35,249 bases of DNA from NCBI GenBank assembly GCA_947478745.1, contig CANJXE010000008.1:1-35249 (forward strand). The letters are read 5' to 3'. The DNA is from Actinomycetota bacterium. Its GTDB lineage: Bacteria > Actinomycetota > Thermoleophilia > Gaiellales > F1-60-MAGs149. The notes under the pieces were generated by a model. It saw only the letters and a program-made list of their open reading frames with translations. It ran no database searches and was not told where the DNA came from. This document shows positions 15,212 to 32,643 of the stretch, one piece after another (within the stretch, counting starts at the first letter, position 1; each line of letters starts with the position of its first letter). The position numbers were made by a program, and so were the translations under genes.

Positions 15212-15249
15212 TTCTCGCGCCGCGTCCCCGTCGCCAGGAGTTGCCCGGA

Positions 15250-16518: not shown

Positions 16519-16524
16519 CCGACC

Positions 16525-18138: not shown

Positions 18139-18163
18139 CCGAACGGGCCAGTTTCGTCGGTCA
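18136..18163. terminator. Hairpin spanning both convergent stop codons
   Basis: The arms TGACCGA (18136-18142) and TCGGTCA (18157-18163) are perfect inverted repeats. The TGA of the OmpA-type gene begins the left arm and the minus-strand TGA of the aldehyde dehydrogenase begins the right arm. GAAC/GTTTC could extend the stem with a bulge. A bidirectional terminator fits the convergent arrangement, although no U-run is present. Confidence 0.5.
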
Positions 18164-19618
18164 GCTGACGGTGCCGTCGAGGATCTGCAGCGTCTTGAGG
18201 TCGGAGTAGAAGTCGAGCGCGTAGTCGCCGCCCTCGCGGCCGATGCCGCTGATGCCGGCCCCGCCGAAGGGCGCGGTCAGGTCGCGGACCAGGAAGCAGT
18301 TGACCCAGAGCGTGCCGGCGCGCACGGCGCGGCCGACGCGCTCGGCGCGCTTGGCGTTGCTCGTGAAGAGGATGCCGGACAGGCCGTACTCGGTCGAGTT
18401 GGCGAGCTCGATGGCCTCCGCTTCGGACGCGAACGTCTGCAGCGTCAGCACGGGGCCGAAGATCTCCTGCTGGACGACCTCGCTGTTGTTCGAGCGCGGG
18501 CGGATCAGCGTCTGCTCGTACCAGTTGCCGCCGATCTCCGGCTGCTTGCCGCCGCGCACGATCTCGTCGCCGTTGCGTCGCGCGCGGTCGACGAAGCCGG
18601 CCACGCGGGCCAGATGGTCGGGGTGGATCAGCGGGCTGATCGTGGTCGCGTCGTCGTGCGGGTCGCCGAGCACCTGGGCATCGACGTTGGCGTGGAAGCG
18701 CACGAGGAAGTCATCGACGATCGACTCGTCGATCAGCAGGCGCGTGCCCGACAGGCAGACCTGGCCGGCATCGTCGTACTGCAGGGCGGCCTTGGCTGCC
18801 GCGGCGTCGAGGTCGGCGTCCGCGAAGACGATGAAGGGGTTCTTGCCGCCGAGCTCGGCGGTGAACGGGACGATGTTGTCCGCTCCGGCGCGGCCGATGA
18901 GGCGCGCGGTCTCGGGCGAGCCGGTGAAGCTCAGGCGGCGCACGCGACGATCCGTCGTCAGTGCCGCGCCGACCTCCTCGCCGATGCCCTGCACGAGGTT
19001 GAAGACGCCGGGCGGGAAGCCCGCCTTGTCGACGAGGTCGAAGAGCAGCGAGCACGACAGCGGCGACCACTCAGCGGGCTTCAGCACGACGGTGCAGCCG
19101 GCCGCGAGCGCAGGCGCGCACTTCCACGTCGAGAGCATGAAGGGCGCGTTCCAGGGGGTGATCACGACGGCCGGGCCGCTCGGGTTGCGCACGACGCGGT
19201 TGGTCGTGCCGTTCGACTCCCAGACGCGCTCCTCGTAGGCGCAGGAGAGGTCGGCATAGGCACGGAAGTTGCGGGCGCCGCGGCCGATCACACGCGCCTT
19301 CAGCGAGCGCTCCAGCATCGCCATGTCCCAGCACTCGACCTCGGCGATGTGGTCCACGTTCGCGTCGATCAGGTCGGCCAGCCGGCGCAGGTACGGCGCG
19401 CGGCCGTGCGGGCCGAGGGCGGCCCAGGCGGGGAAGGCGCGTAGGGCGGCGCTCATCGCCGCGTTGGCGGTGGCGGCGTCGCCACGGCAGACCTCGGCCA
19501 GCAGCGACCCGTCGATCGGGGAGCGGTCCTTGAACGTCGTCGGGCTGCTCACACGGGCGCCGTCGATGTAGTGCTCCGGCGAGACGGTGTGGCCGTGGAC
19601 CTCGACGCGCGTGCTCAC
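18161..19618 (-). CDS. Aldehyde dehydrogenase (HpaE/betaine aldehyde dehydrogenase-like)
   Basis: A 485-residue NAD(P)-dependent aldehyde dehydrogenase, the last gene of a five-gene minus-strand operon. Catalytic residues are Asn157 (TPWNAPF), Glu255 (AELGGKNP) and Cys288 (GQVCLSGTR); the nucleotide-binding FTGSPETA is at 231-238. The overall look is that of the group containing 5-carboxymethyl-2-hydroxymuconate semialdehyde dehydrogenase, which fits the extradiol dioxygenase in the same operon. The GTG at 19618 is chosen because it overlaps the upstream stop (GTGA) and gives the expected family length; longer readings run into the neighbour. The exact aldehyde is unknown. Confidence 0.88.
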   Translation of the reverse strand: MSTRVEVHGHTVSPEHYIDGARVSSPTTFKDRSPIDGSLLAEVCRGDAATANAAMSAALRAFPAWAALGPHGRAPYLRRLADLIDANVDHIAEVECWDMAMLERSLKARVIGRGARNFRAYADLSCAYEERVWESNGTTNRVVRNPSGPAVVITPWNAPFMLSTWKCAPALAAGCTVVLKPAEWSPLSCSLLFDLVDKAGFPPGVFNLVQGIGEEVGAALTTDRRVRRLSFTGSPETARLIGRAGADNIVPFTAELGGKNPFIVFADADLDAAAAKAALQYDDAGQVCLSGTRLLIDESIVDDFLVRFHANVDAQVLGDPHDDATTISPLIHPDHLARVAGFVDRARRNGDEIVRGGKQPEIGGNWYEQTLIRPRSNNSEVVQQEIFGPVLTLQTFASEAEAIELANSTEYGLSGILFTSNAKRAERVGRAVRAGTLWVNCFLVRDLTAPFGGAGISGIGREGGDYALDFYSDLKTLQILDGTVS

Positions 19619-20424
19619 TGGCCGCTCCGCAGATCCGTGATCGTCTCCAGATCGTCGACGGAGTAGGCGAAGGTGAAGCGGTAGCCCTTGCCGACCCGCA
19701 CCGGGGCGAGGGCGATGTGCTCCTCGTTGGGGGCGTCGCCGAAGGTCAGCGTCGCAGCGCCCTCCCAGATCGCGGAGATCGAGCGGTCGAACGACTTGGC
19801 GCGCACGAGCTCGTCTACGGCGGGCGTGTCGTGCGTGCCCTCTGCGAGGCGCGGGAAGTGGCGGCGGTTGACGAGCGGCGGTGCGTTGTGCTCGGGCCCC
19901 GTCGTGCTCTCGCCCGTCAGCTTCACCGTCGCCTCGAGCAGGCGGCGATCGTTGGCGGCCATCGTGCCGCCGAACGTCGAGCCGGCGGCCACGGCGGGAT
20001 CGGCGAGCGTGCCGAGGCCGAACGTGCGCGTCATCCAGATCGAGCCGAGCTTCTTCGGGAAGCCCTGGATCCAGCCGCGCACGAGGGCGAAGTCGCGATC
20101 GACCCAGATGTACGGGCACGTCGTGACGTGCTCGTCGCCGAGCATGCCGTTGACGACGATGAACGCCTCCTTGTACTGGCTGCGTGCGGGATCGACCAGC
20201 TCGTTCTGGTCGGTCGTGCAGGACTGCCAGTCGGCGAAGATCACCGCGGCGCGGCCGGGGTCGTCCGCGTAGGGCTCGACGCCGGGCGGCAGTACGGCGG
20301 CGACGGCGGCCGGGTCGGCCCAGTAGTCCACGACGACGAAGTCGCCGACGTAGTGCCACGGCGGCGGCGGCACGAGGCTCGCGCGGCCGGTGGGGGATAG
20401 GGGGAGGCTGTAGCCCTTGCTCAT
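19615..20424 (-). CDS. Acetoacetate decarboxylase family protein
   Basis: A 269-residue protein of the acetoacetate decarboxylase (ADC) superfamily. The Schiff-base lysine region is preserved in RGWIQGFPKKLGSIW, as is the earlier PPGVEPYADDPGRAAVIFADWQS-type strand region around residues 50-75. Family members include true acetoacetate decarboxylases and also aldolase-dehydratase or hydro-lyase enzymes acting on pyruvate-derived compounds. In this ring-cleavage operon the latter role on a 2-oxo intermediate is attractive, but that is inference. The start ATG 20424 is preceded by GGAG. It lies 16 bases after the glutamine-synthetase-like gene and overlaps the aldehyde dehydrogenase start by four bases. 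Confidence 0.8.
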   Translation of the reverse strand: MSKGYSLPLSPTGRASLVPPPPWHYVGDFVVVDYWADPAAVAAVLPPGVEPYADDPGRAAVIFADWQSCTTDQNELVDPARSQYKEAFIVVNGMLGDEHVTTCPYIWVDRDFALVRGWIQGFPKKLGSIWMTRTFGLGTLADPAVAAGSTFGGTMAANDRRLLEATVKLTGESTTGPEHNAPPLVNRRHFPRLAEGTHDTPAVDELVRAKSFDRSISAIWEGAATLTFGDAPNEEHIALAPVRVGKGYRFTFAYSVDDLETITDLRSGQ

Positions 20425-20440
20425 GTGATCTCCTGGCGAC

Positions 20441-21745
20441 TCAGACGTGGTCGGCGTACTCGGTCCATTCCCATTCGGTGACGACGCGCGCGAAGCGGTG
20501 CAGCTCGCGCCGCTTGACGTCGACGACGGTGCGCACCATCCGCTCGCCGAGCGCACCGGCGATGATCGGGTCGGCCTCGAGCGCGTCGAGCGCTGTGCCG
20601 AGATCGGCGGGCAGCGCGACGGGCTCGCCGGGCACGAGCCCGCGCTCGATGCCGTCGCGGCCGGCGGCGAGCGCGGCGGCCACCAGCAGGTACGGGTTGG
20701 CGGAGGCGTCGCCGATGCGCAGCTCCACGCGCGTCGCGGCGCCGTTCTGGGGCGGTACGCGCAGGTACGCGGTGCGATCGTCGCCGCCCATGTCCGCCTG
20801 CAGCGGGGCGAGGCCGATGTTGGCGTTGGCGAGCCGCTTGAAGGAGTTGATCGTCGGGCAGGCAATCGCGGTCAGGGCCGGGGCGTGCTCGATCAGCCCC
20901 GCGGCGAAGGCGAGGCCGAGCTCGGACAGGCCGCCGCTCGGCGTTGCGAAGGCGTTGGCGGCGCCGGCCCACAGCGAGAGGTGGACGTGATGGCTCGAGC
21001 CCTCGGCATCGGCGAAGGGCTTGCCCATGAAGTTGGCGCGCAGGCCGTGGCGTCCCGCCGTCTCGCGCACGACCTCCTCGAACAGGAATGCGCGGTCGGT
21101 CGCGTCGAGGACCTCGCCGTGGCTCAGGTTCATCTCGAACTGGCCGGGCGAGACCTCGCGGTGCGCTGCGGTGACGCCGAGGCCCATCGCGACGCACGCA
21201 TCCTGCATGGCGCGCAGCACGCCGTCGGGGTCGGCGCGATAGCCGGAGGTGTAGGCGAGGCCCACGCCGGGCGAGTAGCGCCCGACGGACGGTCCGGCGC
21301 CGGGCTCGAGCAGGTAGAACTCGGGCTCTGAGGCGGAGACGGCGCGGTAGCCGAGGGTGTGGAGCTTCGCGATCTCAGCCTTCAGCAGCGATCGCGCGCA
21401 GAGGCCGGACGGCGCGTGATCGGGCTCGACGACGTCGGCCAGGAGCCACGCGGTGTGCGCGTCCCAGGGGACCGGTCGCGCCGTCGTCGCATCGGGGATC
21501 GCGTGCGTGTCGGGCAGGCCGCTGCCGCCGGGGTGCGGCGCGTCCATCAGCGGCTCGCCGTCGAGCCCCTCGACGAGGCTCGCCTCGCAGTAGCCGATGC
21601 CGCCCGCGAGGTCCGGCAGGGAGGACAGGGGGAAGTCCTTGCTGCGCGCCCGGCCGTGCGGATCCGCATGGATCACGCGCACGCGCGAGACGCCCTGCGC
21701 GGCGAGCGTGTCGCGCAGGGTGGTGAGGACGGCGTCGTCGGACAT
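20441..21745 (-). CDS. Glutamine synthetase-like gamma-glutamyl-amide ligase
   Basis: A 434-residue member of the glutamine synthetase superfamily. Metal and substrate motifs are intact: Glu140 and Glu142 (SEPEFYLL), Glu197 and Glu204 (REVSPGQFEMNL), His253 (GSSHHVHLSL), NSFKRL, the DRTAYLRVP phosphate region, and Glu341/Arg343 (RVELRIGD). The tyrosine adenylylation site loop of housekeeping GlnA is not evident, and the N-terminal domain is short. The closest functional models are PuuA, IpuC and anilide-forming enzymes, which gamma-glutamylate an amine to start its breakdown. Its place in a catabolic operon argues against ammonia assimilation. It starts three bases after the dioxygenase stop. 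Substrate unknown. Confidence 0.82.
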   Translation of the reverse strand: MSDDAVLTTLRDTLAAQGVSRVRVIHADPHGRARSKDFPLSSLPDLAGGIGYCEASLVEGLDGEPLMDAPHPGGSGLPDTHAIPDATTARPVPWDAHTAWLLADVVEPDHAPSGLCARSLLKAEIAKLHTLGYRAVSASEPEFYLLEPGAGPSVGRYSPGVGLAYTSGYRADPDGVLRAMQDACVAMGLGVTAAHREVSPGQFEMNLSHGEVLDATDRAFLFEEVVRETAGRHGLRANFMGKPFADAEGSSHHVHLSLWAGAANAFATPSGGLSELGLAFAAGLIEHAPALTAIACPTINSFKRLANANIGLAPLQADMGGDDRTAYLRVPPQNGAATRVELRIGDASANPYLLVAAALAAGRDGIERGLVPGEPVALPADLGTALDALEADPIIAGALGERMVRTVVDVKRRELHRFARVVTEWEWTEYADHV

Positions 21746-21748
21746 GGT

Positions 21749-22681
21749 CTAGCCGGCGAGCGGCGGGAGCGGCGTGCCCTGCGCCTCGAGCTGGTGGCGC
21801 TCGGAGTGCACGGCCGCATCGTCGAAGCGGAAGTACGAGCGCGGCGGCAGGATGCCCCAGGTGTTCGAGCCCCAGGCGTCGTCGGCCCACTCGCGCGGCG
21901 TGTGCGGCATCCGCAGGATCTCCATGTCGCAGTAGAGCTCGACGAAGAGGTTCTCCTCGGGGATGCGCACGTAGGCGCAGAGGTTGCGCGCCAGGTTGTG
22001 ATGCACCGGTCCCCAGCCGAGCCAGCGGCCATGGCGGCCGAGGTGGTCGAGGAACACCCGCAGCTGGCCCCAGTCGACGATGTCGAAGGCGATGTGGTGG
22101 AAGTGCGTCGGCCCCTTGCCGACGATCGCCATCTGGTGATGCTCGGGGTGCACGTGGAACCAGATGCCGGCCTCGCCGAGCTTGTCGGACACCTGCATGC
22201 CCATCACGTCCGTGTAGAACGCGGTCGTCTCGGCGATGTTCGGCGCGAGGATGTTCACGTGACCGAGGCGGCGCGGGTGCATGCCGAACGGCGGCTCGTT
22301 GCGGCGACCGGCGTCCGGCCAGAGCTCGATCGCCGTGCGCTCGCGGTGCGCGAGCAGCTGCAGGCCTTGGCCCGAGGAGTCGACAAACCGCAGCGAGCCG
22401 TCGGGCTCGCGCGAGTAGCTCACGTTGCACGCATCGAGGTGCCTGGCGGCATCGTCGAGCGAGCAGTCGGCGGCGAGCTCCCACGCGCTGTGATCATGGT
22501 CGGGCTCGGCGTCCTGCACGAGCTCGAGGCAGTAGTCCTCCGAGTCGGCGCGCAGCAGCGAGCGGCCGGGCTCGCGGGCGACGACCTCGAGCCCGAATTG
22601 CACCGACCAGCGCGCGGTCGCCTCGTCGATGTCCAGCACGCGCAGGCACGCGTGATGCAGGTCATGGAGTCGGATGCTCAT
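21749..22681 (-). CDS. VOC-family extradiol ring-cleavage dioxygenase
   Basis: A 310-residue type I extradiol dioxygenase with two vicinal-oxygen-chelate modules, roughly residues 5-112 and 135-255. The Fe/Mn ligands can be assigned in the second module: His141 (RRLGHVNILAPN), His195 or His196 (HFHHIAFDI) and Glu248 (NLFVELYCD). Spacing and the C-terminal tail (WGILPPRSYF) recall homoprotocatechuate 2,3-dioxygenases and related catechol dioxygenases. It probably opens a catechol-like ring next to a hydroxyl group. It lies one base after the FAH-family gene and three bases before the glutamine-synthetase-like gene, so it is the second gene of the operon. Confidence 0.85.
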   Translation of the reverse strand: MSIRLHDLHHACLRVLDIDEATARWSVQFGLEVVAREPGRSLLRADSEDYCLELVQDAEPDHDHSAWELAADCSLDDAARHLDACNVSYSREPDGSLRFVDSSGQGLQLLAHRERTAIELWPDAGRRNEPPFGMHPRRLGHVNILAPNIAETTAFYTDVMGMQVSDKLGEAGIWFHVHPEHHQMAIVGKGPTHFHHIAFDIVDWGQLRVFLDHLGRHGRWLGWGPVHHNLARNLCAYVRIPEENLFVELYCDMEILRMPHTPREWADDAWGSNTWGILPPRSYFRFDDAAVHSERHQLEAQGTPLPPLAG

Positions 22682-22682
22682 G

Positions 22683-23540
22683 TCATACCTCCCCGGCGGC
22701 GACGCGCCGCTCGGCTTCGTCCTCGGGAATCGCGAGCGCCACGTGCAGCGTGTTCGCGGAGGTCTCGGGCTGATCGCCCGGGCCGCTCAGATCCACATCC
22801 CAATCCACGACGGTGTTGCGCAGTGCGGGAAAACCCGCGATCTCGACCTCGACGACGTCGCCGACGTCCATCGGGCGCGAGTTGGCGGGCGTGCCGGTCA
22901 GCACGACGTCGCCCGGCACCAGCGTGATCACGCGGCACAGGTCGGCGAGCTGGTACCGGTAGTCCCAGATCAGGTCGTCCTGGTCGCCGCGCTGGACCAC
23001 CTCGCCGTTGATGCGCGTGGTCAGCGTGAAGCCCTCGTCGGGCGTCCACTGGTCGGCGGTCACCATCGCCGGGCCGATCGGCAGGAAGCCGTCCTGGCCC
23101 TTGACGCGCAGCATCGAGCCGCGGTCGGCGTGGCGGAAGTCGTGGAGGCCGACGTCGTTGGCGGGGGCGAAGCCGGCGACGTACTCGTGCACGTGCCCGG
23201 GCTTGACGCCCTTCATCTCGCGGCCGATCACGACGGCGATCTCGCCCTCGTAGTTGAGGAAGCGCGTGCCGTGCGGACGGCGCAGCTCGCCGAGGTGGCC
23301 GTTGAGCGTGGTCGGCGGCTTCATGAAGTACGACGGCTCGGGCGGCGTCTTGGCCTGGTACTCGGTCAGGCGCGACTGGTACGTCAGGTGCACGGCCATG
23401 ATCTTGCTCGGCTCGACCGGGGCGAGCCAGTGGGCGCCCTCGGATGCGAGCTCGGTGCCGCTGTCGAGGCGGATGACGCCGTCGTCCTTGAGCTCGCCCC
23501 ACTGGGGCTCGCCGGCGTGGAGGATGCGGACGCGCAGCAT
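22683..23540 (-). CDS. Fumarylacetoacetate hydrolase family protein
   Basis: A 285-residue FAH-family enzyme, a single-domain member of the group that includes HpaG-type isomerase/decarboxylases and acylpyruvate hydrolases. The metal ligands are Glu98 and Glu100 (NYEGEIAVVIG) and Asp129 (ANDVGLHDF), with Lys147 in the VKGQDGFLPIGP loop. The C-terminal VVLTGTPANSRPMDVGDVVEVEI is typical. Such enzymes act on the products of extradiol cleavage, which fits the next gene. It is first in the operon. The ATG at 23540 overlaps the stop of a 14-codon upstream ORF, and its promoter region carries the operator at 23649-23663. Confidence 0.87.
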   Translation of the reverse strand: MLRVRILHAGEPQWGELKDDGVIRLDSGTELASEGAHWLAPVEPSKIMAVHLTYQSRLTEYQAKTPPEPSYFMKPPTTLNGHLGELRRPHGTRFLNYEGEIAVVIGREMKGVKPGHVHEYVAGFAPANDVGLHDFRHADRGSMLRVKGQDGFLPIGPAMVTADQWTPDEGFTLTTRINGEVVQRGDQDDLIWDYRYQLADLCRVITLVPGDVVLTGTPANSRPMDVGDVVEVEIAGFPALRNTVVDWDVDLSGPGDQPETSANTLHVALAIPEDEAERRVAAGEV

Positions 23541-23584
23541 CAGTTCGCCTCGTCCGTCGTGGTCGCCCTGCGTGTGCGGTTCAT
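23540..23584 (-). CDS. 14-codon upstream ORF coupled to the FAH-family gene
   Basis: On the minus strand an ATG at 23584, five bases after a strong GGGAGGGG ribosome binding site, opens a short frame encoding MNRTRRATTTDEAN. Its TGA overlaps the ATG of the FAH-family gene (TGATG). The FAH ATG has only a weak Shine-Dalgarno sequence of its own (GAGGCG), so ribosomes ending this mini-ORF could reinitiate there. The peptide has no recognised attenuator pattern (no codon run). It could still be chance. Confidence 0.35.
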   Translation of the reverse strand: MNRTRRATTTDEAN

Positions 23585-23648
23585 CTGCCCCTCCCGGCGG
23601 GGATCCTAGGTGCAATGCGTCGGGAGCAGTGAGCGACCCGCCGAATTC

Positions 23649-23663
23649 TGGATATTGTATCCA
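23649..23663. promoter_or_regulatory. Operator upstream of the FAH operon, shared with hpaB-like promoter
   Basis: TGGATA-TTG-TATCCA is a perfect inverted repeat between the divergent permease and FAH-family genes. Read on the minus strand the wider site is CAGATTGGATAC followed by AATATCCA, identical in 12 consecutive bases plus ATCCA to the site at 30922. The minus-strand TACAAT inside it could be the -10 of the FAH operon. A GntR/FCD-type repressor would suit the size and symmetry. The rest of the 248-base gap shows no other clear element. Confidence 0.65.
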
Positions 23664-23788
23664 ATCTGACGCGTGAAGGGAACCCCTTCCGCCATGATGC
23701 CTGCACGCTGGTAGCCGAGGAGATCGCGGGAGTTCCGCGAACGTGCTGCCAGCATCACGCCCGGAGGGGCTGACCAAGGGAGAGCACT

Positions 23789-25228
23789 ATGGGCGCGCAA
23801 GCGCAGGGGGGCGAGAAGCTCGGTAAGGGCAATCTCAGCCTGCTCGATGTCATCGCGCAGTCGATCGGGTTCATCGGACCCGTATTCGCGGCTGCGTTCT
23901 TCATTCCGACGATCGTCGGCGCGTCGCTGAACGGCAAGGGTGCCGGACTCGCGAGTCCCGTGTCGATCATCATCGCCATGGTCGGGATGTGCGCGGTGGC
24001 GTGGATCATCTCGCGCTTCGCCCGTCGCATCCATGCCGCGGGCTCGCTGTACGACTACGTCACCGAGGCCTTCGGCGAGCGCATCGGCTTCGTCGGCGGC
24101 TGGGTCTACTACGGCGGCGTGATCGCCCTGACGCTGGCCATCGGCCTGGCGTTCGGCGGGTTCCTGCACGACACGCTGTTCTTCAACCACGACATCGACA
24201 TCGCGTGGTACTGGCTGTCGATCGCCTTCTGGGTTGCAGCTGCACTGATGATGCTGCGCGGCGTGGCCATCTCCACGCGCGTGCAGCTCGTGCTCGGCCT
24301 CGGCTCGTTCCTGATCATCCTCGTCTTCTCGATCTGGGTGATCTTCAAGGTCGGTGGTGACGGCGGCCTCAGCACCGCGCCGTTCAATCCCAGCTCGTCC
24401 GACCAGGGCTGGAACGGCATCTTCTTCGGAATTCTCTACGCCGTGATCATGTTCATCGGCTTCGAGAGCTCGGCGAACCTCGCCGAGGAGAGCACCAACC
24501 CGCGCAAGCACCTGCCGCTGGCGATCTTCGGCTCGTGCATCGCCGTCGGCGTGTTCTACGTGATCGTCACGTACGCCCAGGCGGTCGGCTTCGGCCTCTC
24601 CGTGCAGGCGTGGCTCGAGGCGTTCCCGCCGCTCTACGCGCTGGCGGCCGACCCGAACTACGGCAGCACCGGCTTCGGCGAGCTGATCCAGTGGCTCGTC
24701 GTGATCGACATCGCCGCCGTCGGCCTCGGCACGGCAACCGGCTCGAGCCGCGGCATCTTCGCCCTGGCACGTGACGGCCGCCTGCCCGCGGTCCTCGCGA
24801 AGATGCACCCCAAGTACAAGACGCCGTACGTGGCGTCGACGTTCCTGGCCATCGTCTCGATCGTCCTGATCGCGATCGTCGCCTGGACGAACGGCCTGAT
24901 GAGCGTGGGCGAGATGGACCCGGGCCAGTGGTTCCCGATGTTCAACTGGCTCGCGACCTTCGGCGGCTTCATGATGGTCGCCGTCTACATCGCGATCTGC
25001 GTGGCGGCCTTCAAGGGCATGCCGGGCGAGTCGAGCGGCCTGCTCGCACTGGCCGGCATTGTCGGCGGTCTCGTCTCGATCGGTGCGATCTACGGCGTGA
25101 TCGTCCAGTACGCCGACATCCCGGCCTACAACCGCGTGTGGTGGATCGCGGTCCTGTGGCTCGTCGGCGGCGTCATCGTCATGGTGATCCTCAACCAGAT
25201 GGGCCGTCTGCGCAACCGGACGGTCTAG
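23789..25228 (+). CDS. APC family amino acid/amine permease
   Basis: A 479-residue integral membrane transporter of the amino acid-polyamine-organocation superfamily with about 12 hydrophobic segments. The first helix has the unwound substrate-binding stretch IAQSIGFIGPVFAAAFF, and helix 6 carries GFESSANLAEESTNPRKHLP, the best-known signature of this superfamily. AAGGGAGAG before ATG 23789 is the ribosome binding site. It is divergent from the ring-cleavage operon and shares its regulatory gap, so it probably imports the pathway substrate, perhaps an amino acid, amine or other nitrogenous aromatic. A strong terminator follows. Confidence 0.9.
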   Translation: MGAQAQGGEKLGKGNLSLLDVIAQSIGFIGPVFAAAFFIPTIVGASLNGKGAGLASPVSIIIAMVGMCAVAWIISRFARRIHAAGSLYDYVTEAFGERIGFVGGWVYYGGVIALTLAIGLAFGGFLHDTLFFNHDIDIAWYWLSIAFWVAAALMMLRGVAISTRVQLVLGLGSFLIILVFSIWVIFKVGGDGGLSTAPFNPSSSDQGWNGIFFGILYAVIMFIGFESSANLAEESTNPRKHLPLAIFGSCIAVGVFYVIVTYAQAVGFGLSVQAWLEAFPPLYALAADPNYGSTGFGELIQWLVVIDIAAVGLGTATGSSRGIFALARDGRLPAVLAKMHPKYKTPYVASTFLAIVSIVLIAIVAWTNGLMSVGEMDPGQWFPMFNWLATFGGFMMVAVYIAICVAAFKGMPGESSGLLALAGIVGGLVSIGAIYGVIVQYADIPAYNRVWWIAVLWLVGGVIVMVILNQMGRLRNRTV

Positions 25229-25240
25229 CGCGTCGTGTGC

Positions 25241-25274
25241 AGAGGGGTCCGGGGCTTCGGCTCCGGGCCCCTCT
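25241..25274 (+). terminator. Intrinsic-type terminator after the permease
   Basis: A 15-bp stem (25241-25255 with 25260-25274, two G-U pairs) closes a UUCG tetraloop and begins 12 bases after the permease stop. The stem is AGAGGGG plus CCGGGGC on the left side. The following sequence TCGCATTT is only weakly U-rich, as is common in high-GC bacteria. Confidence 0.75.
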
Positions 25275-25337
25275 TCGCATTTCCGGGGCGTGAGGGTGGC
25301 GGTACGCTTCGGTGATTCACGCGTTGGGAGGCGTTCG

Positions 25338-26537
25338 ATGGCAGTGCAGGCAGACCCCAGAATCGACCCGGAGCGTCGCGCGCGGCTGCTCGCCATCGTC
25401 GACGAGCTCGGCCCCGCCTTCCGCGAGCGCGCGCCCAAGTACGACCGTGAGGCGTCCTTCCCATTCGAGAACTTCGACGACCTCTACGACGCCGGCTTCT
25501 ACGGCCTTTGCATCCCGACCCGCTACGGCGGTCTCGGCGCGAGCTTCAACGACTACATGCACATCGGCGCGGCGATTGGCGCGTACTGCCCGATGACCGC
25601 GCTGACGTTCAACATGCACACGCAGACGGTCCTCTGGACCGGCGTCGCCGCCGACGACCTCGACATGAGCGACGAGCACCGCGCCGCACACGAGGCGCTG
25701 CGCACCGAGCTCTACCGGCGCATCATCGAGGAGAAGGCGCTGCAGTCGCAGCCGCTGAGCGAGGGCATCGCCCAGGGCGCCACGCGCGGCTTCGCGACGA
25801 CGGCGGAGAAGGTCGACGGCGGCTACCGGGTCAACGGTCGCAAGATCTTCGCCTCGCTGGCCGGCGCGGCCACCGACTACAACATCACGTGCGTCGAGAC
25901 GAGCGAGGACGAGATCCTCTTCCTCGCGATCGCGGCCGATGACCCGGGCGTCGAGATCGTCGGCGACTGGGATCCGCTCGGCATGCGCGGCACCGTCTCG
26001 CGGACGCTGCTCTTCAAGGATGCCTTCGCCCCCGACGAGGCCGTGCTGCTGCCGCCGGGCATCTACAACCAGCTCGCCGAGCGCTGGCCGTACGTCTACA
26101 TGACGCTGACGCCCGCCTACATGGGGCTGTCGAAGGCCGTCATCGATTTCGTGCGCGGCTACATGTCGTCGCAGGCGCCTCCCGGCATCACCTCGCGGCG
26201 TGACGTTCCGCAGAAGCAGCAGGGCTGGGCGGAGCTTCAGATCATGTACGAGCGCAGCCGCGCCCTGTTCGACAAGGTCGTCGACGAGGCGCGCGTCGAC
26301 CCGACGCCCGACATGGTGGCGCGCGCGCTGGCCGCGAGCTTCACGACCATGGAGACGGCGCCCGAGCTTGCCTCGCTCGCGATCCGCACCTGCGGCGGCA
26401 TGTCGCTGCTCAAGGAGCTGCGGCTCGAGCAGATGTACCGCGACGCCCGCTGCGGCAGCACGATGCTGCCGTGGAGCGCGGAGATCTGCCTGCACCGCCT
26501 CGGCCGACACGGGATCTTCCCCGATGACGCCGAGTAG
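25338..26537 (+). CDS. Acyl-CoA dehydrogenase-like flavoprotein
   Basis: A 399-residue flavoprotein of the acyl-CoA dehydrogenase superfamily. It has the N-terminal helical domain, a middle beta domain (GGYRVNGRKIFASLAGAATDYN; DPLGMRGTVSRTLLF) and a C-terminal helical domain ending YRDARCGSTMLPWSAEICLHRLG. The superfamily includes both fatty-acid enzymes and flavin-dependent monooxygenases of the HsaA/DszC type. No thioesterase, CoA ligase or enoyl-CoA hydratase is nearby, so a hydroxylase role in the ring-degradation pathway is possible. GGGAGG at 25326-25331 supports the ATG. It overlaps the alpha/beta hydrolase gene by 14 bases. A TACGCT hexamer at 25303-25308 is a weak -10 candidate. Confidence 0.83.
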   Translation: MAVQADPRIDPERRARLLAIVDELGPAFRERAPKYDREASFPFENFDDLYDAGFYGLCIPTRYGGLGASFNDYMHIGAAIGAYCPMTALTFNMHTQTVLWTGVAADDLDMSDEHRAAHEALRTELYRRIIEEKALQSQPLSEGIAQGATRGFATTAEKVDGGYRVNGRKIFASLAGAATDYNITCVETSEDEILFLAIAADDPGVEIVGDWDPLGMRGTVSRTLLFKDAFAPDEAVLLPPGIYNQLAERWPYVYMTLTPAYMGLSKAVIDFVRGYMSSQAPPGITSRRDVPQKQQGWAELQIMYERSRALFDKVVDEARVDPTPDMVARALAASFTTMETAPELASLAIRTCGGMSLLKELRLEQMYRDARCGSTMLPWSAEICLHRLGRHGIFPDDAE

Positions 26538-27327
26538 CCTGCTGCGCGACGTCGACGAGTTGCCGATCGCCTGGCGCGAGGCGGGGGAGGGCGCGACCGT
26601 CCTGTTCCTGCACGGGCTCGGCATGACCCGCACGGGCTGGGATGCGCAGCTGCTCGCGCTCGCCGACGGCTACCGCTGCGTGGCGTGGGACCTGCCGGGC
26701 TACGGCGCGTCCCTGCCGCTCCCCGACTTCTCGCTCGAGGCCGCGGCGGACGCCGCAGCGATGCTGATCGACCGCCTCGGCGGCAGCGCGCACGTCGTCG
26801 GCCTGTCGATGGGCGGCATGGTCGCGCTGCACCTCGCGCTGCGCCACCCCGAGTGCGTGCGCTCGCTGTCGCTGGTCGATACCAGCCCGGCCTTCGGCAT
26901 GGACGGCACCGACCCCGAGGCGTGGCGGGCGGCGCGGCTGGCACCGCTCGAGGCGGGGGCCGAGGTGGCGGACTTCGCCGAGCCCGTCCTGCGCGGCGTG
27001 ATGGCGCCCGATCCCGATCCGCGCGCGGTCGAGGCCGCGGTGCAGTCGATGCTGCGCGTACCGATCAGCGGCCTGATGCAGACCATCGCCGCGCTGCCCG
27101 CCCACGACGTGCGCGCGCGGCTCGGCGCGATCACCGCCCCGACGCTCGTCGTGGTCGGCGAGCTGGATGAGGAGACGCCGCCGGCCTACGCCGAGGCGCT
27201 CGCCAGCGGGATTCCCGGTGCGCGCCTCGAGGTCATCCCCGGCGCCGGGCACCTGACGCCGTTCGAGGCGCCCGCCGCGCTCAGCCGGCTCCTGCGCGAC
27301 CATGTGGACATGGTGGAGGCCGTCTGA
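26524..27327 (+). CDS. Alpha/beta hydrolase
   Basis: A 267-residue alpha/beta-hydrolase-fold enzyme. The oxyanion segment is FLHGLGMTRTGW, the nucleophile elbow GLSMGGM carries the Ser, the acid is probably Asp in VVGELDEETPP, and the His lies in GAGHLTPFE. In general form it resembles 3-oxoadipate enol-lactonase-type hydrolases. It starts inside the end of the flavoprotein gene, and its TGA overlaps the ATG of the NicX-like gene. In nicotinate degradation the NicX product is deformylased by NicD, also an alpha/beta hydrolase of similar size, so a NicD-like role is a reasonable context-based guess. Confidence 0.85.
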   Translation: MTPSSLLRDVDELPIAWREAGEGATVLFLHGLGMTRTGWDAQLLALADGYRCVAWDLPGYGASLPLPDFSLEAAADAAAMLIDRLGGSAHVVGLSMGGMVALHLALRHPECVRSLSLVDTSPAFGMDGTDPEAWRAARLAPLEAGAEVADFAEPVLRGVMAPDPDPRAVEAAVQSMLRVPISGLMQTIAALPAHDVRARLGAITAPTLVVVGELDEETPPAYAEALASGIPGARLEVIPGAGHLTPFEAPAALSRLLRDHVDMVEAV

Positions 27328-28352
27328 TGGAGCACCGCACGCTCGATGTCTTCCGCCGCGCGCTCGTCGCCAGCGGCCTGACCGCCGGCGAGGTCGTCGC
27401 CGTGCTGAGCGAGTCGACGAGCCGCACTGCGCTCGTCGATGCTGCACGGCTCGCGGCCGAGGATCTCGGCGGTCGCGTCGTCGACGTGCGCATGCCGACT
27501 CCAGCAAACCCCGGCCCCGTCGCGATCCGCTCGACCGGCTCGAGCATCGCGCTGCAGGGCAACCCCGCCGCCGTCGCCGCGCTCTGCGCCGCCGATCTCG
27601 TGCTCGACTGCACGGTCGAGGGCCTGCTCCACGCGCCCGAGCTGCCGACCATCCTCAGCGCGGGCGCCCGCGTCCTGATGATCCCGAGCGAGGATCCCGA
27701 GGCCTTCGAGCGCTGGGCGCCCGACGCTGGGCAGCTCAAGGCCCGCGTCCTGGCCGGGCTCGAGCGGCTGCGCGCCGCCACCGAGATGCGCGTCACGTCG
27801 TCGGCGGGCACCGATCTCAAGGTCCGTCTGACCGGCGCATTCACGGCCGGCTCGTGGGGCGCCACAGACGGTCCCGGCACGGTCGCGCACTGGCCCGGCG
27901 GCCTCGTGGTCGCGTTCCCCGCCGCCAACTCCGTCGATGGCACGCTGGTGCTGGCCCCCGGCGACGTCAACCTCACCTTCAAGCAGTACCTCCGCGATCC
28001 CGTGCGGCTGACGATCGAGGGCGACCGCATCGTCGACATCGACGGCCGCAACGTTGACGCCGACCTGCTGCGCTCGTACCTCGCCGCCTTCGACGAGGAG
28101 GAGGCCTACTCGGTCAGCCACGTCGGCTGGGGCATGAACCCGGCCGCCCGCTGGGACGCGCTGATGATGATGGACAAGCGCGAGACCAACGGCATCGAGC
28201 TGCGTGCCTTCGAGGGCAACTTCCTCTTCTCGACCGGCGCCAACGAGAACGCCGGCCGCTTCACGCGCGGCCACTTCGACTTCCCGATGCGCCGCTGCAC
28301 CGTCATGCTCGACGGCGAGACGGTCGTCAACGCCGGCCGCGTCGTCGAGTAG
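27327..28352 (+). CDS. 2,5-dihydroxypyridine 5,6-dioxygenase (NicX)-like protein of the M29 aminopeptidase fold
   Basis: A 341-residue protein that automatic annotation may call a leucyl aminopeptidase. From memory of the Pseudomonas putida NicX sequence, its second half is closely alignable: GTLVLAPGD, the SHVGWGMNPAARW segment, RAFEGNFLFSTGANE and HFDFPMRRC. The NicX iron ligands (His265, His318, Asp320) correspond to His265, His316 and Asp318 here. NicX opens the 2,5-dihydroxypyridine ring to N-formylmaleamate. Conservation of the three ligands argues for an iron dioxygenase rather than a peptidase, which would need other metal ligands; the exact ring substrate is uncertain. It is the third gene of a coupled set and ends before a hairpin repeat. 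Confidence 0.75.
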   Translation: MEHRTLDVFRRALVASGLTAGEVVAVLSESTSRTALVDAARLAAEDLGGRVVDVRMPTPANPGPVAIRSTGSSIALQGNPAAVAALCAADLVLDCTVEGLLHAPELPTILSAGARVLMIPSEDPEAFERWAPDAGQLKARVLAGLERLRAATEMRVTSSAGTDLKVRLTGAFTAGSWGATDGPGTVAHWPGGLVVAFPAANSVDGTLVLAPGDVNLTFKQYLRDPVRLTIEGDRIVDIDGRNVDADLLRSYLAAFDEEEAYSVSHVGWGMNPAARWDALMMMDKRETNGIELRAFEGNFLFSTGANENAGRFTRGHFDFPMRRCTVMLDGETVVNAGRVVE

Positions 28353-28370
28353 CTGTTCCGCCCAGGAGTC

Positions 28371-28449
28371 CGTTCGTGAAACAACGGGGCCAGACCCCTC
28401 CGTTTCACGAACGTTGAAACGGAGGGGTCTGGCCCCGTTGTTTCACGAG
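28371..28449. repeat. Paired REP-like hairpins forming a 34-bp perfect inverted repeat
   Basis: Arms 28374-28407 and 28415-28448 are perfect reverse complements of 34 bases around a 7-base loop. Each arm is itself a small palindromic unit built on GGGGCCAGACCCC: the left unit has 12-base arms CGTTCGTGAAAC (28371-28382) and GTTTCACGAACG (28402-28413). The layout is like two head-to-head REP units. It lies between convergent genes and could stop transcription from both sides. The right end supplies the last serine codon and the TGA of recX (28443-28448). Confidence 0.85.
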
Positions 28450-29222
28450 GAGCGCAGCGCCTGCAGGAGCGCCTGCGTTTGGGTCGGGGTGGCGCCGTGG
28501 CGCGTTAGCCAGGCGTGGGCGCGGCGCCGCGCGCCGGCGTCGGTGCCCGCGGTCGGGTAGCGCCGTCGCACCTGCCGCTCCAGATCGTCGGGGTCGGCCG
28601 GGGCGCGCGTGCGCTCGGCTTCGCCGGCGAACTCCGTCGCGAGCCGACCGGCGATCTGCGCGCTGAAGCCCCGTCGGGCCAGATACCCGTAGGCGCGCGT
28701 GCGGCTGGCCGCCGTGCTCGGCCGGGCCTCGAGCAGGCGCCGGGCCTCGGCCTCCTCGTCGAAGTCCGCGTAGATCTCGTCGATCGCCTCGGCGATGTCG
28801 GCGTCGGCGAAGCCCTGCCGTCGCAGCCGCTGGCGCGTCGAGTAGGCGGCGTGCCCCGACTCGGCCAGGCGCCGCCCGCGCGTGGCGGCAAGCGCGCGGT
28901 CGTTGAGCGCGCCGATCTCGGCGCAGCGCTCCAGCGTCGGCCCGATCACCGTCTCGGGGAACCCCTTGCGCACCAGTCGGTCGCGCAGCTGCCCGCGCGA
29001 GGCCATGCGGAAGTCGAGCGACCGGATCGCGAACGACAGCGCCGCCGTCTCCTCCTTGCTGCGCTCGAGCTCCTGCTGGCGACGCTCGCTCAGCTCCAGC
29101 CCGACGTGCAGGTCCTCGTCGGCCACGAGCGCCACCGGCAGCGTCGCCCAGTACGTCCCGTCGAGGTGGACCTTCACGGTCGGCTTGCCATTCACGGCCG
29201 CCAGTCGTGTGATCTCCGCCAT
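28443..29222 (-). CDS. recX: Regulatory protein RecX
   Basis: RecX inhibits RecA filament growth. The 259-residue protein is longer than typical RecX because of an N-terminal extension (MAEITRLAAVNGKPTVKVHLDG). It is built from three-helix repeats, such as ALSFAIRSLDFRMASRGQLRDRL, TRQRLRRQGFADADIAEAID, and SRTRAYGYLARRGFSAQ. No recA is adjacent, unlike the common recA-recX order. The final codon and stop are supplied by the hairpin repeat, so the native C-terminus may have been changed. TAGAGT six bases before the ATG suggests a leaderless promoter. Confidence 0.88.
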   Translation of the reverse strand: MAEITRLAAVNGKPTVKVHLDGTYWATLPVALVADEDLHVGLELSERRQQELERSKEETAALSFAIRSLDFRMASRGQLRDRLVRKGFPETVIGPTLERCAEIGALNDRALAATRGRRLAESGHAAYSTRQRLRRQGFADADIAEAIDEIYADFDEEAEARRLLEARPSTAASRTRAYGYLARRGFSAQIAGRLATEFAGEAERTRAPADPDDLERQVRRRYPTAGTDAGARRRAHAWLTRHGATPTQTQALLQALRSS

Positions 29223-29228
29223 GCGTCG

Positions 29229-29234
29229 ACTCTA
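29229..29234 (-). promoter_or_regulatory. -10 hexamer for leaderless recX
   Basis: On the minus strand TAGAGT is followed by six bases and the recX ATG at 29222, with no Shine-Dalgarno sequence. The tandem palindromes at 29242-29338 lie just upstream and would overlap its -35 region. Confidence 0.4.
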
Positions 29235-29241
29235 GTCGTTC

Positions 29242-29338
29242 TGGACCCGGGTCCAAACGTGCACGATTTCGGTCAATTTGGACCCGGGTCCAAACGTGCA
29301 CGATTTCGGTCAATGTGGACCCGGGTCCAGATTGACCG
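29242..29338. repeat. 37-bp tandem repeat with palindromic TGGACCCGGGTCCA cores
   Basis: Two 37-base units (29242-29278 and 29279-29315) differ only in their last base, and a third core begins at 29316. Each core TGGACCCGGGTCCA (29242-29255, 29279-29292, 29316-29329) is a perfect 14-base palindrome. The third is embedded in a 32-base near-perfect palindrome, 29307-29338, flanked by CGGTCAAT and ATTGACCG. It fills much of the 158-base gap between the AsnC-like stop and recX. Confidence 0.9.
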
Positions 29339-29380
29339 CAAAGCGACCGCTGCGGTGCCGGACCGGCTACGGGCGTGTGC

Positions 29381-29659
29381 CTAGCTGTCGCCGATCTCGA
29401 ACATGGCGTCGAGATCGTGGCGCGAATACGCGCGGAAGGCGGGCAGCGTCTCGGTGCGGACGATGCCGTCGATGGCCAGCAGGCCCGAGGTGACGAGGTC
29501 GGCCATCGCCTCGTTCGTCGGCACGCGGACGATGGCGACGAGGTCGTAGCGGCCGGCGACCGAGTGGACCTCGGCGACGCCGTCGGTGGAGGCGAGCCGA
29601 TCGGCCACCTCGCCGAGGCGGCCGCGCTCGACGTCGATCAGGACGAATGCGGTGACCAT
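29381..29659 (-). CDS. Stand-alone Lrp/AsnC ligand-binding (RAM) domain protein
   Basis: A 92-residue protein consisting only of the Lrp/AsnC effector-binding domain: MVTAFVLIDVERGRLG, VAEVHSVAGRYDLVAIVRV and the late strand region TLPAFRAYSRHDLD. No helix-turn-helix precedes it; the frame upstream is not protein-like. Such proteins form beta-sandwich dimers or octamers that bind amino acids and may modulate full-length Lrp regulators. A TAGAAT hexamer seven bases before the ATG overlaps the stop of the upstream amidase, so it may have its own leaderless transcript while also being read through from the amidase gene. Confidence 0.85.
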   Translation of the reverse strand: MVTAFVLIDVERGRLGEVADRLASTDGVAEVHSVAGRYDLVAIVRVPTNEAMADLVTSGLLAIDGIVRTETLPAFRAYSRHDLDAMFEIGDS

Positions 29660-29666
29660 GCTGGGG

Positions 29667-29672
29667 ATTCTA
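29667..29672 (-). promoter_or_regulatory. -10 hexamer for leaderless AsnC-like gene
   Basis: On the minus strand TAGAAT lies seven bases before ATG 29659. Its first three bases are also the TAG stop of the amidase gene. No Shine-Dalgarno sequence is present. Confidence 0.4.
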
Positions 29673-30857
29673 GCCCTCGCCCCACAGCTCGGCCTTGGCG
29701 ATCTCCCACGCCTCGCCGGGATCGCCCGGCATGGCGGGGATGTAGCGCGCGCCCTCGTGCGGGGTGAAGGGCGGCGTCCACGAGCCACGCTGCTGCAGGC
29801 GCTTGATGTTGCCGCGGTAGATCTCGTCCACCTCGGCGTGCGACGCCGGCTCGTTCTCCAGCCACAGGTTCTTGGGATGGATCGGCTCGTCGTACATGTC
29901 CTTGAAGAGCTCGGTCCGCAGATCCTTCATCCAGTTGGAGTTGAGGTTCATCGCGCGGAAGTTGCGCAGCGCCTCGATGTCGATGATGCCGGCGCAGAAG
30001 CTGTTCATGCCGCTCTGCGAGAGGCCAAGCACCTGGCCCTGGAAGTCGACGACGTGGCCGTTGCCGCCGCCGATGTCGTAGGGCTGCTCCATCTTCGGGT
30101 GCACGTAGACCGGGCCGACGTTCGGGCACACCATGTACAGCGAGTTGAAGTGCGCGTGGGCGCGGTTCTGCAGGAGCCACGTGCCGCCGGGGTCGGGGCC
30201 GTTCTGCGTCATCGGCACGGCCTCGCTTGGCCGGTAGACGACCTCGGCACCGTTGAAGGCCAGCGCGCGGATCGCCTCGGGGTACTCGCCGTCGGAGCAG
30301 CAGATCGTGCCGACGTTGCCGATGTCCTTGGTCTTCAGCACGGGGTAGAACGCGTCGAGCCCGTCGCCGAACACCTCGATCCAGCGGTCGTGGACGTCGT
30401 GCGGAGTGGTGGAGCGCTCACGGCACCAGAGGTGGTTCTTGGCCGCCTTGTGGACGATGCGCCCGTTGGGGCCGATCACGAACAGCATGTTGAAGAAGCG
30501 GTCGTCCATCACCTCGGGCAGGCGCGCCTTGCACTGGACCACGATGTACGTGCCGTACTGCTTGGCGAGCTTGCCGAGCCGCTGCGTCTCCGGGCCGGGC
30601 AGGTCGATGAACAGGTCGCGCGCGGCGGTGGTGTGGGGGATGTCGAAGATCTCGTCGGTGAAGCCGGTCAGCGCCCCCTCGGCGAGGGCGATCAGCTTGA
30701 CGGGCATGTTGATGCCGATGATCGAGACCGCGGCGTGGATCGCGTCCTCGATGACGTCGAGGTTGCGCGCGATCTCGCTGCGCTTCGAGATGCCCCGAAC
30801 GACCGTCGAGAGCCCCACTGCCATGTAGGGCGCTACGGGCCCTGTCTGCTTCGCCAT
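29670..30857 (-). CDS. Nitrilase-superfamily amidase (AmiE/AmiF-like)
   Basis: A 395-residue carbon-nitrogen hydrolase. The catalytic Glu-Lys-Cys triad can be placed by comparison with aliphatic amidase AmiE: Glu60 (LAEGALTG), Lys140 (IVHKAAKNHLWC) and Cys187 (CCSDGEYPE). The segment WLLQNRAHAHFNSLYMV also follows the amidase/formamidase pattern rather than that of true nitrilases. The C-terminal 80 residues extend beyond the usual domain. AGGAGG lies just before ATG 30857. It is divergent from the HpaB-like monooxygenase and shares its 107-base control region, so it probably hydrolyses a pathway amide (hydroxyphenylacetamide, maleamate or formamide are candidates). Substrate not determined. 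Confidence 0.83.
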   Translation of the reverse strand: MAKQTGPVAPYMAVGLSTVVRGISKRSEIARNLDVIEDAIHAAVSIIGINMPVKLIALAEGALTGFTDEIFDIPHTTAARDLFIDLPGPETQRLGKLAKQYGTYIVVQCKARLPEVMDDRFFNMLFVIGPNGRIVHKAAKNHLWCRERSTTPHDVHDRWIEVFGDGLDAFYPVLKTKDIGNVGTICCSDGEYPEAIRALAFNGAEVVYRPSEAVPMTQNGPDPGGTWLLQNRAHAHFNSLYMVCPNVGPVYVHPKMEQPYDIGGGNGHVVDFQGQVLGLSQSGMNSFCAGIIDIEALRNFRAMNLNSNWMKDLRTELFKDMYDEPIHPKNLWLENEPASHAEVDEIYRGNIKRLQQRGSWTPPFTPHEGARYIPAMPGDPGEAWEIAKAELWGEG

Positions 30858-30905
30858 GCGTTCCTCCTGAGGCTGCAAGCGTACGGCACGTACGGGGTTG
30901 TCTCC

Positions 30906-30934
30906 TTGACACCGTCCGACGCAGATTGGATACT
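30906..30934 (+). promoter_or_regulatory. Sigma70-type promoter of the HpaB-like gene
   Basis: A perfect -35 TTGACA (30906-30911) is separated by exactly 17 bases from GATACT (30929-30934). Transcription would start near 30941, leaving a leader of about 24 bases that carries GGAGG (30950-30954) before ATG 30965. The -10 lies inside the operator palindrome. Confidence 0.75.
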
Positions 30935-30945
30935 GGATCCAATCT
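30923..30945. promoter_or_regulatory. Operator over the -10 region of the HpaB-like gene
   Basis: AGATTGGAT, five bases, ATCCAATCT is a perfect 9-base inverted repeat that covers the -10 hexamer and likely start point. With the preceding C it matches the minus-strand sequence upstream of the FAH operon as CAGATTGGATACNNNATCCA, in the same orientation relative to the gene served. A bound repressor would block RNA polymerase. Confidence 0.72.
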
Positions 30946-30964: not shown

Positions 30965-32431
30965 ATGGCTGCAACCGAGACCAGTTCCAACGTGGCGGCG
31001 CGCACCGGCGCGCAGTTCCTCGAGGGCCTGCGCAACGACCGCGATCGCGAGATCTGGATCGGCGGCGAGTGCGTCACCAACCCGCTCGACCACGAGCTGC
31101 TGCGCCCGGGTGCCGAGGCCGTCGCGCGCGTCTACGACACGCAGCACGAGCACGCCGAGGTCTGCCTCGCGCCGAATCCCGACGACGGCAAGCTGGTCAA
31201 CCGCACGCACCTGATCCCCCGCAGCCGCGAGGATCTGATGAAGCGTCGCGCCTCGATGGAGATCATCGCGGCGGCGACGGGCGGGATGATGGGCCGCGTC
31301 CCCGACTACCTCAACGTCACGTTCGCCTGCTTCTCCGGGGCCTCCGAGGTGTGGGCGCGACGCGGCAACGAGCGCGGCGCCGAGAACATCGTCAACTACC
31401 AGCGGCTGATGCGCGATCTGGATCTCTCGACGACGCACGCGATCATGAATCCGGTCGCCGACCGCTCGAAGTCCGAGACCGAGCAGCTCGGCGGCGAGAT
31501 CGCGCTGCACAAGGTGGGCGAGTCGAGCGAGGGCATCATCGTGCGCGGCGCGCGCATGCTGGCCACGCTGGCGCCGTTCTCCGACGAGATCTCGATCTAT
31601 CCGGGCTCCGACCTGAAGCCGGGCGACGAGGCCTACGCGCTGGCCTTCGCGATCCCGATGAGCACGCCGGGCCTGCGCTTCATCTGCCGCGACTCGTTCT
31701 CGAAGCCGAAGAGCACGTTCGACTACCCGCTCAGCGCGCGCTTCGACGAGATGGACGCGGTCGTCATCTTCGACGACGTCCTCGTGCCCCACGATCGCGT
31801 GTTCCTGGACGGCGACATCGTCGGCTACTCCGAGGTCATCACCGACTCGGGCTGGCGCGGCCACATCATGCACCAGGCCTTCACGCGGGCCTACGTCAAG
31901 CTGATGTTCGCGTTCGGGCTCGGCCACGCCATGGCGCAGACGACCGGCGTCGTGCGCTTCGATCACATCCAGGAGAAGCTCGGCCAGATCTGGAACATGA
32001 CGGAGCTGACGCGCTCGGCGCTGGTCGCCGCAGAGGCCGACTCGTACCTCGACGATCACGGCGTCTGGTACCCCAACGACCGCCCGCTGATGGCGCTGCG
32101 CGGCGAGATGCCGAAGTGGCTGCCCCGCACCCACGAGCTGCTCCAGCTGATCGGTGGCGGCTCGTTCATGGCGACGCCCTCGGAGGCCGACTTCAACTCG
32201 GCGATCCGCGGCGACATCGAGAAGTACTTCCAGTCGGCCGGTGGCGACGCCGAGCATCGTGTGCGCCTGTTCCGCCTGGCCTGGGACTTCATCGGCTCCG
32301 ACCTCGGCGGCCGCAGCGAGCTGTACGAGCGCTTCTACCTGTCGGACTCGTGGCGGATGACGCAGCTGGCCTACCGGACGGCGGACACGACGTTCGCCGA
32401 GTCGCTGGTCGATCAGTTCATGCACGACTAA
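30965..32431 (+). CDS. 4-hydroxyphenylacetate 3-hydroxylase (HpaB) family flavin monooxygenase
   Basis: A 488-residue member of the HpaB family, the oxygenase component of two-component flavin-dependent phenol ortho-hydroxylases. The start region RTGAQFLEGLRNDREIWIGG (without one duplicated Arg-Asp step) is the family hallmark; the middle has FSGASEVWARRGNERGAENI and the C-terminal helical domain includes HQAFTRAYVKLMFAFGLGHA and IGGGSFMATPSEADF. It would make the catechol that the VOC dioxygenase opens. No flavin reductase (HpaC) is in the window, so reduced flavin must come from elsewhere. The real start is ATG 30965 with GGAGG before it. Relatives hydroxylate chlorophenols, tyrosine derivatives or other phenols, so the substrate is open. 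Confidence 0.88.
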   Translation: MAATETSSNVAARTGAQFLEGLRNDRDREIWIGGECVTNPLDHELLRPGAEAVARVYDTQHEHAEVCLAPNPDDGKLVNRTHLIPRSREDLMKRRASMEIIAAATGGMMGRVPDYLNVTFACFSGASEVWARRGNERGAENIVNYQRLMRDLDLSTTHAIMNPVADRSKSETEQLGGEIALHKVGESSEGIIVRGARMLATLAPFSDEISIYPGSDLKPGDEAYALAFAIPMSTPGLRFICRDSFSKPKSTFDYPLSARFDEMDAVVIFDDVLVPHDRVFLDGDIVGYSEVITDSGWRGHIMHQAFTRAYVKLMFAFGLGHAMAQTTGVVRFDHIQEKLGQIWNMTELTRSALVAAEADSYLDDHGVWYPNDRPLMALRGEMPKWLPRTHELLQLIGGGSFMATPSEADFNSAIRGDIEKYFQSAGGDAEHRVRLFRLAWDFIGSDLGGRSELYERFYLSDSWRMTQLAYRTADTTFAESLVDQFMHD

Positions 32432-32637: not shown

Positions 32638-32643
32638 CCGTCC

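Follow-up and report, generated by a model that had tools for sequence, protein, structure and literature searches.

Among described regulators, a close counterpart of the one treated here is Atu1419 of Agrobacterium fabrum, a VanR-group member of the FCD-GntR proteins that represses hydroxycinnamate degradation genes from ATGTATACAT sites lying over -10 boxes (PMC7797058). Atu1419 is tetrameric and able to loop DNA (PMC7797058), its reported effector is methylene-tetrahydrofolate, and its Arg45 contacts the key G of the operator. Six rather than seven C-terminal helices are a mark of the VanR group. The VanR operator ATTGGATCCAAT, the VanO of synthetic biology (PMC7970624), is a single 12-bp palindrome. 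For the FadR subfamily, Suvorova et al. 2015 (PMC4494728) described a common consensus, TKGT/ACMA, in which GT and AC are 2-3 nt apart. They also reported additional boxes at 7-12 nt from the centre of the palindrome, and divergons in which one site near the middle serves both operons. The subject of the present analysis is a stretch of 35,249 nt from a freshwater Actinomycetota bacterium of the Gaiellales, class Thermoleophilia (GCA_947478745.1, CANJXE010000008.1), which is the entire contig C8 of its genome assembly and is called the window below. It carries two copies of one sequence, CAGATTGGATACNNNATCCA, in two gaps of a gene cluster that by its predicted enzymes is like the hpa (homoprotocatechuate) gene sets. 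It is highly likely that both copies are operators of one factor, the FCD-GntR protein encoded at 14465-15097, which would repress four transcription units and be relieved by a pathway metabolite.

Two copies of one sequence in two divergent gaps

An earlier note on this DNA had reported the same sequence before the FAH-family operon on the minus strand and before the HpaB-like gene on the plus strand, and had judged the coincidence unlikely by chance. Both statements hold. CAGATTGGATACNNNATCCA occurs exactly twice in the window, at 23649-23668 (minus strand, site 1) and at 30922-30941 (plus strand, site 2), and allowing up to 3 mismatches adds just one match, site 2 read on its other strand. 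Shuffles put the matches expected in the window by chance at 0.02, and base composition gives about 9e-6 expected exact copies. In the genome to which the window belongs (1.65 Mb, 129 contigs, 87.65% complete), pattern searches, used in place of scanning with a position weight matrix, found no third site at up to 2 mismatches. A match to TGGAT-N5-ATCCA on contig C24 of this genome, and on C16 of genome G003, reads as part of a tRNA gene, its anticodon arm (anticodon TGT), and was rejected as an operator. The features on which the argument turns are these:

14465..15097, plus strand: FCD-domain GntR regulator, VanR-like, proposed binder of both operators
23647..23665, minus strand: predicted operator 1, 19 bp, ATTGGATACAATATCCAGA, in the FAH/permease gap
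23654..23665, minus strand: core of operator 1, 12 bp, ATTGGATACAAT, with at least 10 of 12 positions matched upstream of GntR/FAH in other families and Rubrobacteraceae
30925..30943, plus strand: predicted operator 2, 19 bp, ATTGGATACTGGATCCAAT, in the amidase/HpaB gap
30932..30943, minus strand: core of operator 2, 12 bp, VanR-type, ATTGGATCCAGT
30906..30934, plus strand: promoter TTGACA-N17-GATACT, overlapped by operator 2, its CTTGAC invariant in the genus alignment

Each site falls between divergently transcribed units, the two being about 7 kb apart. Site 2 lies in the gap between the amidase gene (start 30857) and the divergent HpaB-like gene (start 30965) and reads AGATTGGAT-ACTGG-ATCCAATCT, a perfect inverted repeat with 9-bp arms. 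As the earlier note had it, this repeat overlaps the -10 of TTGACA-N17-GATACT, which is also the sole promoter-like site found there. Site 1 is found roughly midway between the FAH start (23543) and the permease start (23789), its centre about 113-133 bp from both, and reads on the minus strand TGGATA-CAA-TATCCA. The 6-base arms and the TACAAT hexamer claimed for it are present; the promoter that this hexamer might mark is without a -35 partner in our search.

The word originally described can be taken as the signal in part only. Its initial CAG and the bases at the outer ends of the arms differ from one species to another, and the perfect repeat of 9 bases is not conserved as such. These comparisons suggest a better reading of the operator: a VanR-type core of 12 bp, followed 7 bp on by a half-site in inverted orientation. 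The cores at the two sites, which can also be written TTGGATACA and TGGATCCAA, each agree with VanO ATTGGATCCAAT at 11 of 12 positions; the difference is that VanO is a single palindrome, while in the window a third half-site makes a 19-bp inverted repeat.

Conservation of the sites and linkage to the GntR gene

With up to 1 mismatch allowed, ATTGGATN5ATCCAAT was matched in 10 of the 13 genus genomes and in 1 of 138 other relatives searched. Two outcomes that the earlier note would have taken as refuting its reading did not turn up: the motif is not scattered, occurring among these 151 relatives in essentially a single genus, and both sites hold their places between the same genes in relatives. 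Every one of the 11 genus genomes in which the FAH/permease gap is assembled has site 1, and every one of the 8 with HpaB has site 2. When the spacers of the genus, which have diverged, are aligned, the operators stand out as the main invariant blocks, invariant at most positions; at site 2 the TTGAC of the -35 and part of the ribosome-binding site are invariant as well. One genus genome, G009, is without the GntR orthologue, the dioxygenase and the sites, all together. Conservation at these boundaries supports the proposal that monooxygenase, ring-cleavage operon, permease and amidase form one predicted regulon. The arrangement of HpaB points the same way: in several related clusters it is found inside the FAH-VOC operon and in this genus 7 kb off with an operator of its own, which supports one pathway and one regulon.

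In sister species the predicted regulon appears to extend to a P450 locus. There the motif also lies between divergent P450 genes, in a cluster of permease, glutamine synthetase (GS)-like and P450 genes. Versions of this site turned up in 10 genomes, and in several of them the second half-site is weak. The part that does not vary is TTGGATCCA; in G003 and G011 the 12-mer reads ATTGGATCCAAT, identical to the published VanR operator. In G013, which belongs to another genus of the same family, the motif stands before a gene that looks P450-like by sequence. No close homologue of the sister P450 was found in the own genome of the window. Two of these clusters, L026 (G008 C60) and L027 (G006 C9), hold three P450s, a GS-like ligase, an APC permease, hydrolases and an alcohol dehydrogenase together with the operator. 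On C9 of G003, away from the cluster genes, an identical pair of TGGATGCCGGATCCA is found 50 bp apart. A public metagenome-assembled genome contig titled Bifidobacterium breve, CAMAWJ010000013.1 (L136), appears to be the same as C13 of G006 (24155 bp), a genome of this freshwater genus, and its label looks wrong.

The regulator of both sites is very probably the FCD-GntR protein at 14465. The earlier note had called it the only DNA-binding regulator in the window and a possible partner of the sites; among the window genes scanned no other was found, and the partnership has gained strong support from the position of the gene in the genus and in Rubrobacteraceae. A stand-alone RAM protein (29381) was rejected as a regulator, being a bare ligand-binding domain without a helix-turn-helix (HTH). 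GntR orthologues with 69-82% identity adjoin the aldehyde dehydrogenase (ALDH) end of the cluster in G002, G003, G005, G007 and G010 and lie a few kb from the cluster in G000, G001 and G012; wherever a contig of a genus genome spans both, the gene is next to the cluster or no more than a few kb from it. In other Thermoleophilia, GntR homologues (36-57%) are found in or near clusters of FAH, VOC, HpaB, acetoacetate-decarboxylase-family (ADC) and ALDH genes. At five Rubrobacter-type loci FAH and the GntR homologue are transcribed divergently, and the gap between them holds AATGGATACATTATCCATT-type sites, each accompanied by a second, weaker copy about 43-53 bp away.

Blind scans with TGGATACANTATCCA can show how closely the motif follows this gap. 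Across 399 genomes of the class only the genus and G013 matched (reversed control pattern: 2 matches), and across 397 genomes of the phylum matches came from G000, G013 and 12 others outside the family of the window (reversed control: 1 match). Nine of these 12 lie in a GntR/FAH gap, one is beside another FCD-GntR gene, and two (L183, L184) fall within a coding sequence or on its border and were taken as chance. The one beside another regulator (L187, G460 C6, 1499-1517) is near an FCD-GntR of 33% identity and before a sodium/solute symporter-like gene, and may belong to a separate regulon.

The shorter core reaches further. At 10 or more of 12 positions, ATTGGATACAAT gave 16 matches in the 16.3 kb upstream of GntR/FAH genes at 38 out-of-genus loci, against 4 in 616 kb elsewhere; the search set also included a short genus contig, L145, which gave no match. 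With strands counted separately there were 18 upstream matches, against a maximum of 6 among 200 shuffled cores. The Fisher value of 1.6e-22 overstates the certainty, since loci of one lineage are not independent. The matches come from Solirubrobacter, Conexibacter, other Solirubrobacterales and Rubrobacter-type genomes, and this enrichment indicates that the conserved unit is the VanR-like 12-bp core, to which the inverted half-site 7 bp on has been added in the genus and in Rubrobacteraceae. The P450 sites and other Thermoleophilia, which keep only the 12-bp core, weaken the case for the 19-bp repeat as sole recognition unit.

It could be argued that what the sites share is a conserved promoter element, the -10 region read by a particular sigma factor, and no operator at all. 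This would account for the -10-like hexamers, preceded by TTGACA at 17 bp, that the sites overlap in Rubrobacteraceae and at site 2. However, conservation is just as strong in the inverted half-site downstream of the -10, a -35 is lacking at site 1, the motif is not at other promoters of the own genome at up to 2 mismatches, and in distant taxa it is tied to GntR genes, all of which makes this explanation highly improbable.

Care must also be taken with the assignment to GntR itself, against which several points weigh. In G004 and G011 the sites are present and no GntR orthologue was found, though these drafts are possibly incomplete. In the genus the operon that includes the GntR gene also holds PNPOx and a PPDK-regulator-like gene, and in the 2 genomes checked no operator precedes the GntR gene itself, so autoregulation seems to have been lost. 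In several clusters of other Thermoleophilia no operator can be recognised before FAH, TACAAT at site 1 is without its -35, and the 19-bp repeat is off the usual FadR-subfamily GT-N2-3-AC spacing unless it is read as a 12-bp core plus half-site. The 19-bp inverted repeat resembles operators of other HTH families too. One factor for both sites might then be encoded elsewhere, for instance one of TetR, MarR or IclR type, with GntR controlling something else; its shared operon would fit, as would the two genomes with sites in which it was not found. Set against this are the operator between a GntR homologue and FAH in 9 Rubrobacteraceae-type genomes of the blind scan, the class-wide enrichment of the core ahead of GntR and FAH genes, and the lack of any other DNA-binding regulator among the window genes scanned, and we regard a different regulator as quite improbable.

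The probable regulator and a proposed mechanism

The GntR protein of the window has an N-terminal winged HTH (PF00392, 64.5 bits, above the cut-off) and a C-terminal FCD domain (PF07729, 83.7 bits). Its putative metal ligands H134, H180 and H202 are invariant in 18 homologues, as is the recognition helix SRTP[LV]REA, which holds R47 and T48 within SRTP and includes the residue aligned to Arg45 of Atu1419. With the predicted structure (pLDDT 85) as query, Atu1419 (VanR) is the top fold match by E-value, and McbR/YncC has the highest TM-score among the matches listed. The C-terminal helices of the model form seven segments, of which H144-156 and H158-168 are one residue apart and possibly make one kinked helix.

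The system shares with Atu1419 the FCD-GntR architecture, the recognition-helix residues and the predicted use of several operators for one aromatic pathway; its core TTGGATACAA agrees with the 10-bp palindrome ATGTATACAT at 7 of 10 positions, and at site 2 it overlaps a -10 as the Atu1419 sites do. It differs in that protein identity is about 30%, the window sites have the extra half-site 7 bp on, and the window enzymes are of the extradiol meta-cleavage kind. Extra half-sites and a mid-gap position in a divergon, as described for FadR-subfamily operators (PMC4494728), both fit site 1; one half of the window sequence reads TTGGA, however, and in the cores TTGGATACAA and TTGGATCCAG the GT/AC step is absent from one or both halves.

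From these comparisons we infer that GntR binds both sites, represses rather than activates, is released by an inducer, and controls the genes on either side of each gap. In the uninduced state each site would be occupied by a dimer (or tetramer) of GntR. At site 2 the bound protein would cover the -10 of the HpaB promoter and block RNA polymerase, and at site 1 it would sit near the middle of the FAH/permease gap, one site serving both sides in each case. The repressed units would be FAH-VOC-GS-ADC-ALDH, permease-flavoprotein-hydrolase-M29, HpaB, and amidase-RAM. Release could then come from the aromatic pathway itself, through one of its small metabolites bound in the FCD pocket with its putative metal.

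A variant with the same regulator would confine simple repression to site 2 and make GntR an activator, or a dual regulator, at site 1. The lack of a recognisable -35 at site 1 and the distance of its centre from both starts would suit activation; the VanR-group relative Atu1419 is a repressor (PMC7797058), the site 1 core includes TACAAT as a plausible -10, and this mixed role is unlikely beside repression at both sites. A bolder idea, which we also hold to be rather unlikely, is that the three half-sites form a composite operator bound by a higher-order VanR-type oligomer, and that a tetramer bridges sites 1 and 2 over 7 kb. Monooxygenase and ring-cleavage operons would then be switched as one looped unit, with the composite kept across two actinobacterial classes while the genes were rearranged.

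This would be an ordinary kind of gene switch, and apparently an undescribed one; our literature searches found no paper on this regulon. To our knowledge, few regulators of Thermoleophilia and Rubrobacteria have been characterised, and the analysis gives the widespread meta-cleavage cluster of these groups a predicted regulator, operator and set of target genes. The tag TGGATACANTATCCA is so specific that a blind phylum scan of about 400 genomes returns mainly GntR/FAH gaps. HpaB can serve as an example of a gene outside an operon carrying its own operator copy, and the GntR protein is a candidate regulator for biosensors.

Genes of the cluster and its surroundings

The left operon runs in the order FAH, extradiol dioxygenase, GS-like, ADC-family and HpaE-like ALDH. 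The genes of the four predicted units are as follows:

22683..23543, minus strand: FAH-family (HpaG-like) isomerase/decarboxylase, gene 1 of the ring-cleavage operon
21749..22681, minus strand: VOC-family extradiol ring-cleavage dioxygenase
20441..21745, minus strand: GS-like (gamma-glutamyl ligase) gene, patchy in sister clusters
19615..20440, minus strand: ADC-family gene, start approximate
18161..19591, minus strand: HpaE-like ALDH, start approximate
23789..25228, plus strand: amino-acid/amine permease (APC family), divergent from FAH
25290..26537, plus strand: acyl-CoA-dehydrogenase/HsaA-like flavoprotein, permease operon
26500..27327, plus strand: alpha/beta hydrolase, permease operon, start approximate
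27327..28352, plus strand: M29-like metallohydrolase, permease operon; weak Pfam match, 70-91% identity in the genus
29670..30857, minus strand: carbon-nitrogen hydrolase (amidase), divergent from HpaB
29381..29662, minus strand: stand-alone Lrp/AsnC ligand-binding (RAM) domain, no HTH, downstream of the amidase
30965..32431, plus strand: HpaB-like flavin monooxygenase

As in hpa gene sets, HpaB-, HpaD/C23O-, HpaE- and HpaG-like genes are found together; the window differs in adding GS-like, ADC-family, amidase and RAM genes and the GntR-FCD regulator. All its enzymes fall under the NCBIfam equivalog cut-offs (HpaB-1 405.6 against 480.2, HpaE 497.4 against 638.4, HpaG-C 186.4 against 276.4, HpaD 83.1 against 321.4), and for this reason no substrate was assigned to the cluster. 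An N-terminal extension of the ALDH open reading frame was rejected as a fused domain, as it is an out-of-frame reading of the ADC-family gene. The GS-like gene between dioxygenase and ADC is present in G002 and G011 and was not detected in G004, G005, G010 and G008.

The RAM domain is kept beside the amidase across the genus. Here and in G003 a RecX-like gene (28443-29222, minus strand) separates M29 and RAM, which are adjacent in G005, G006, G010 and G012, so that the RecX-like gene was inserted or lost. Between GntR and ALDH (15181-18138, plus strand) are two genes whose products look secreted, with OmpA and beta-helix matches in one of them; they are not in that place in G003, G005 and G010. 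At the other end, 32611-35247 (plus strand) encodes a very long Gly/Asn-rich protein of GGNGG repeats, PE_PGRS-like, that runs off the contig end. Its N-terminus resembles a secretion signal and has a weak match at the same place beside HpaB in G012.

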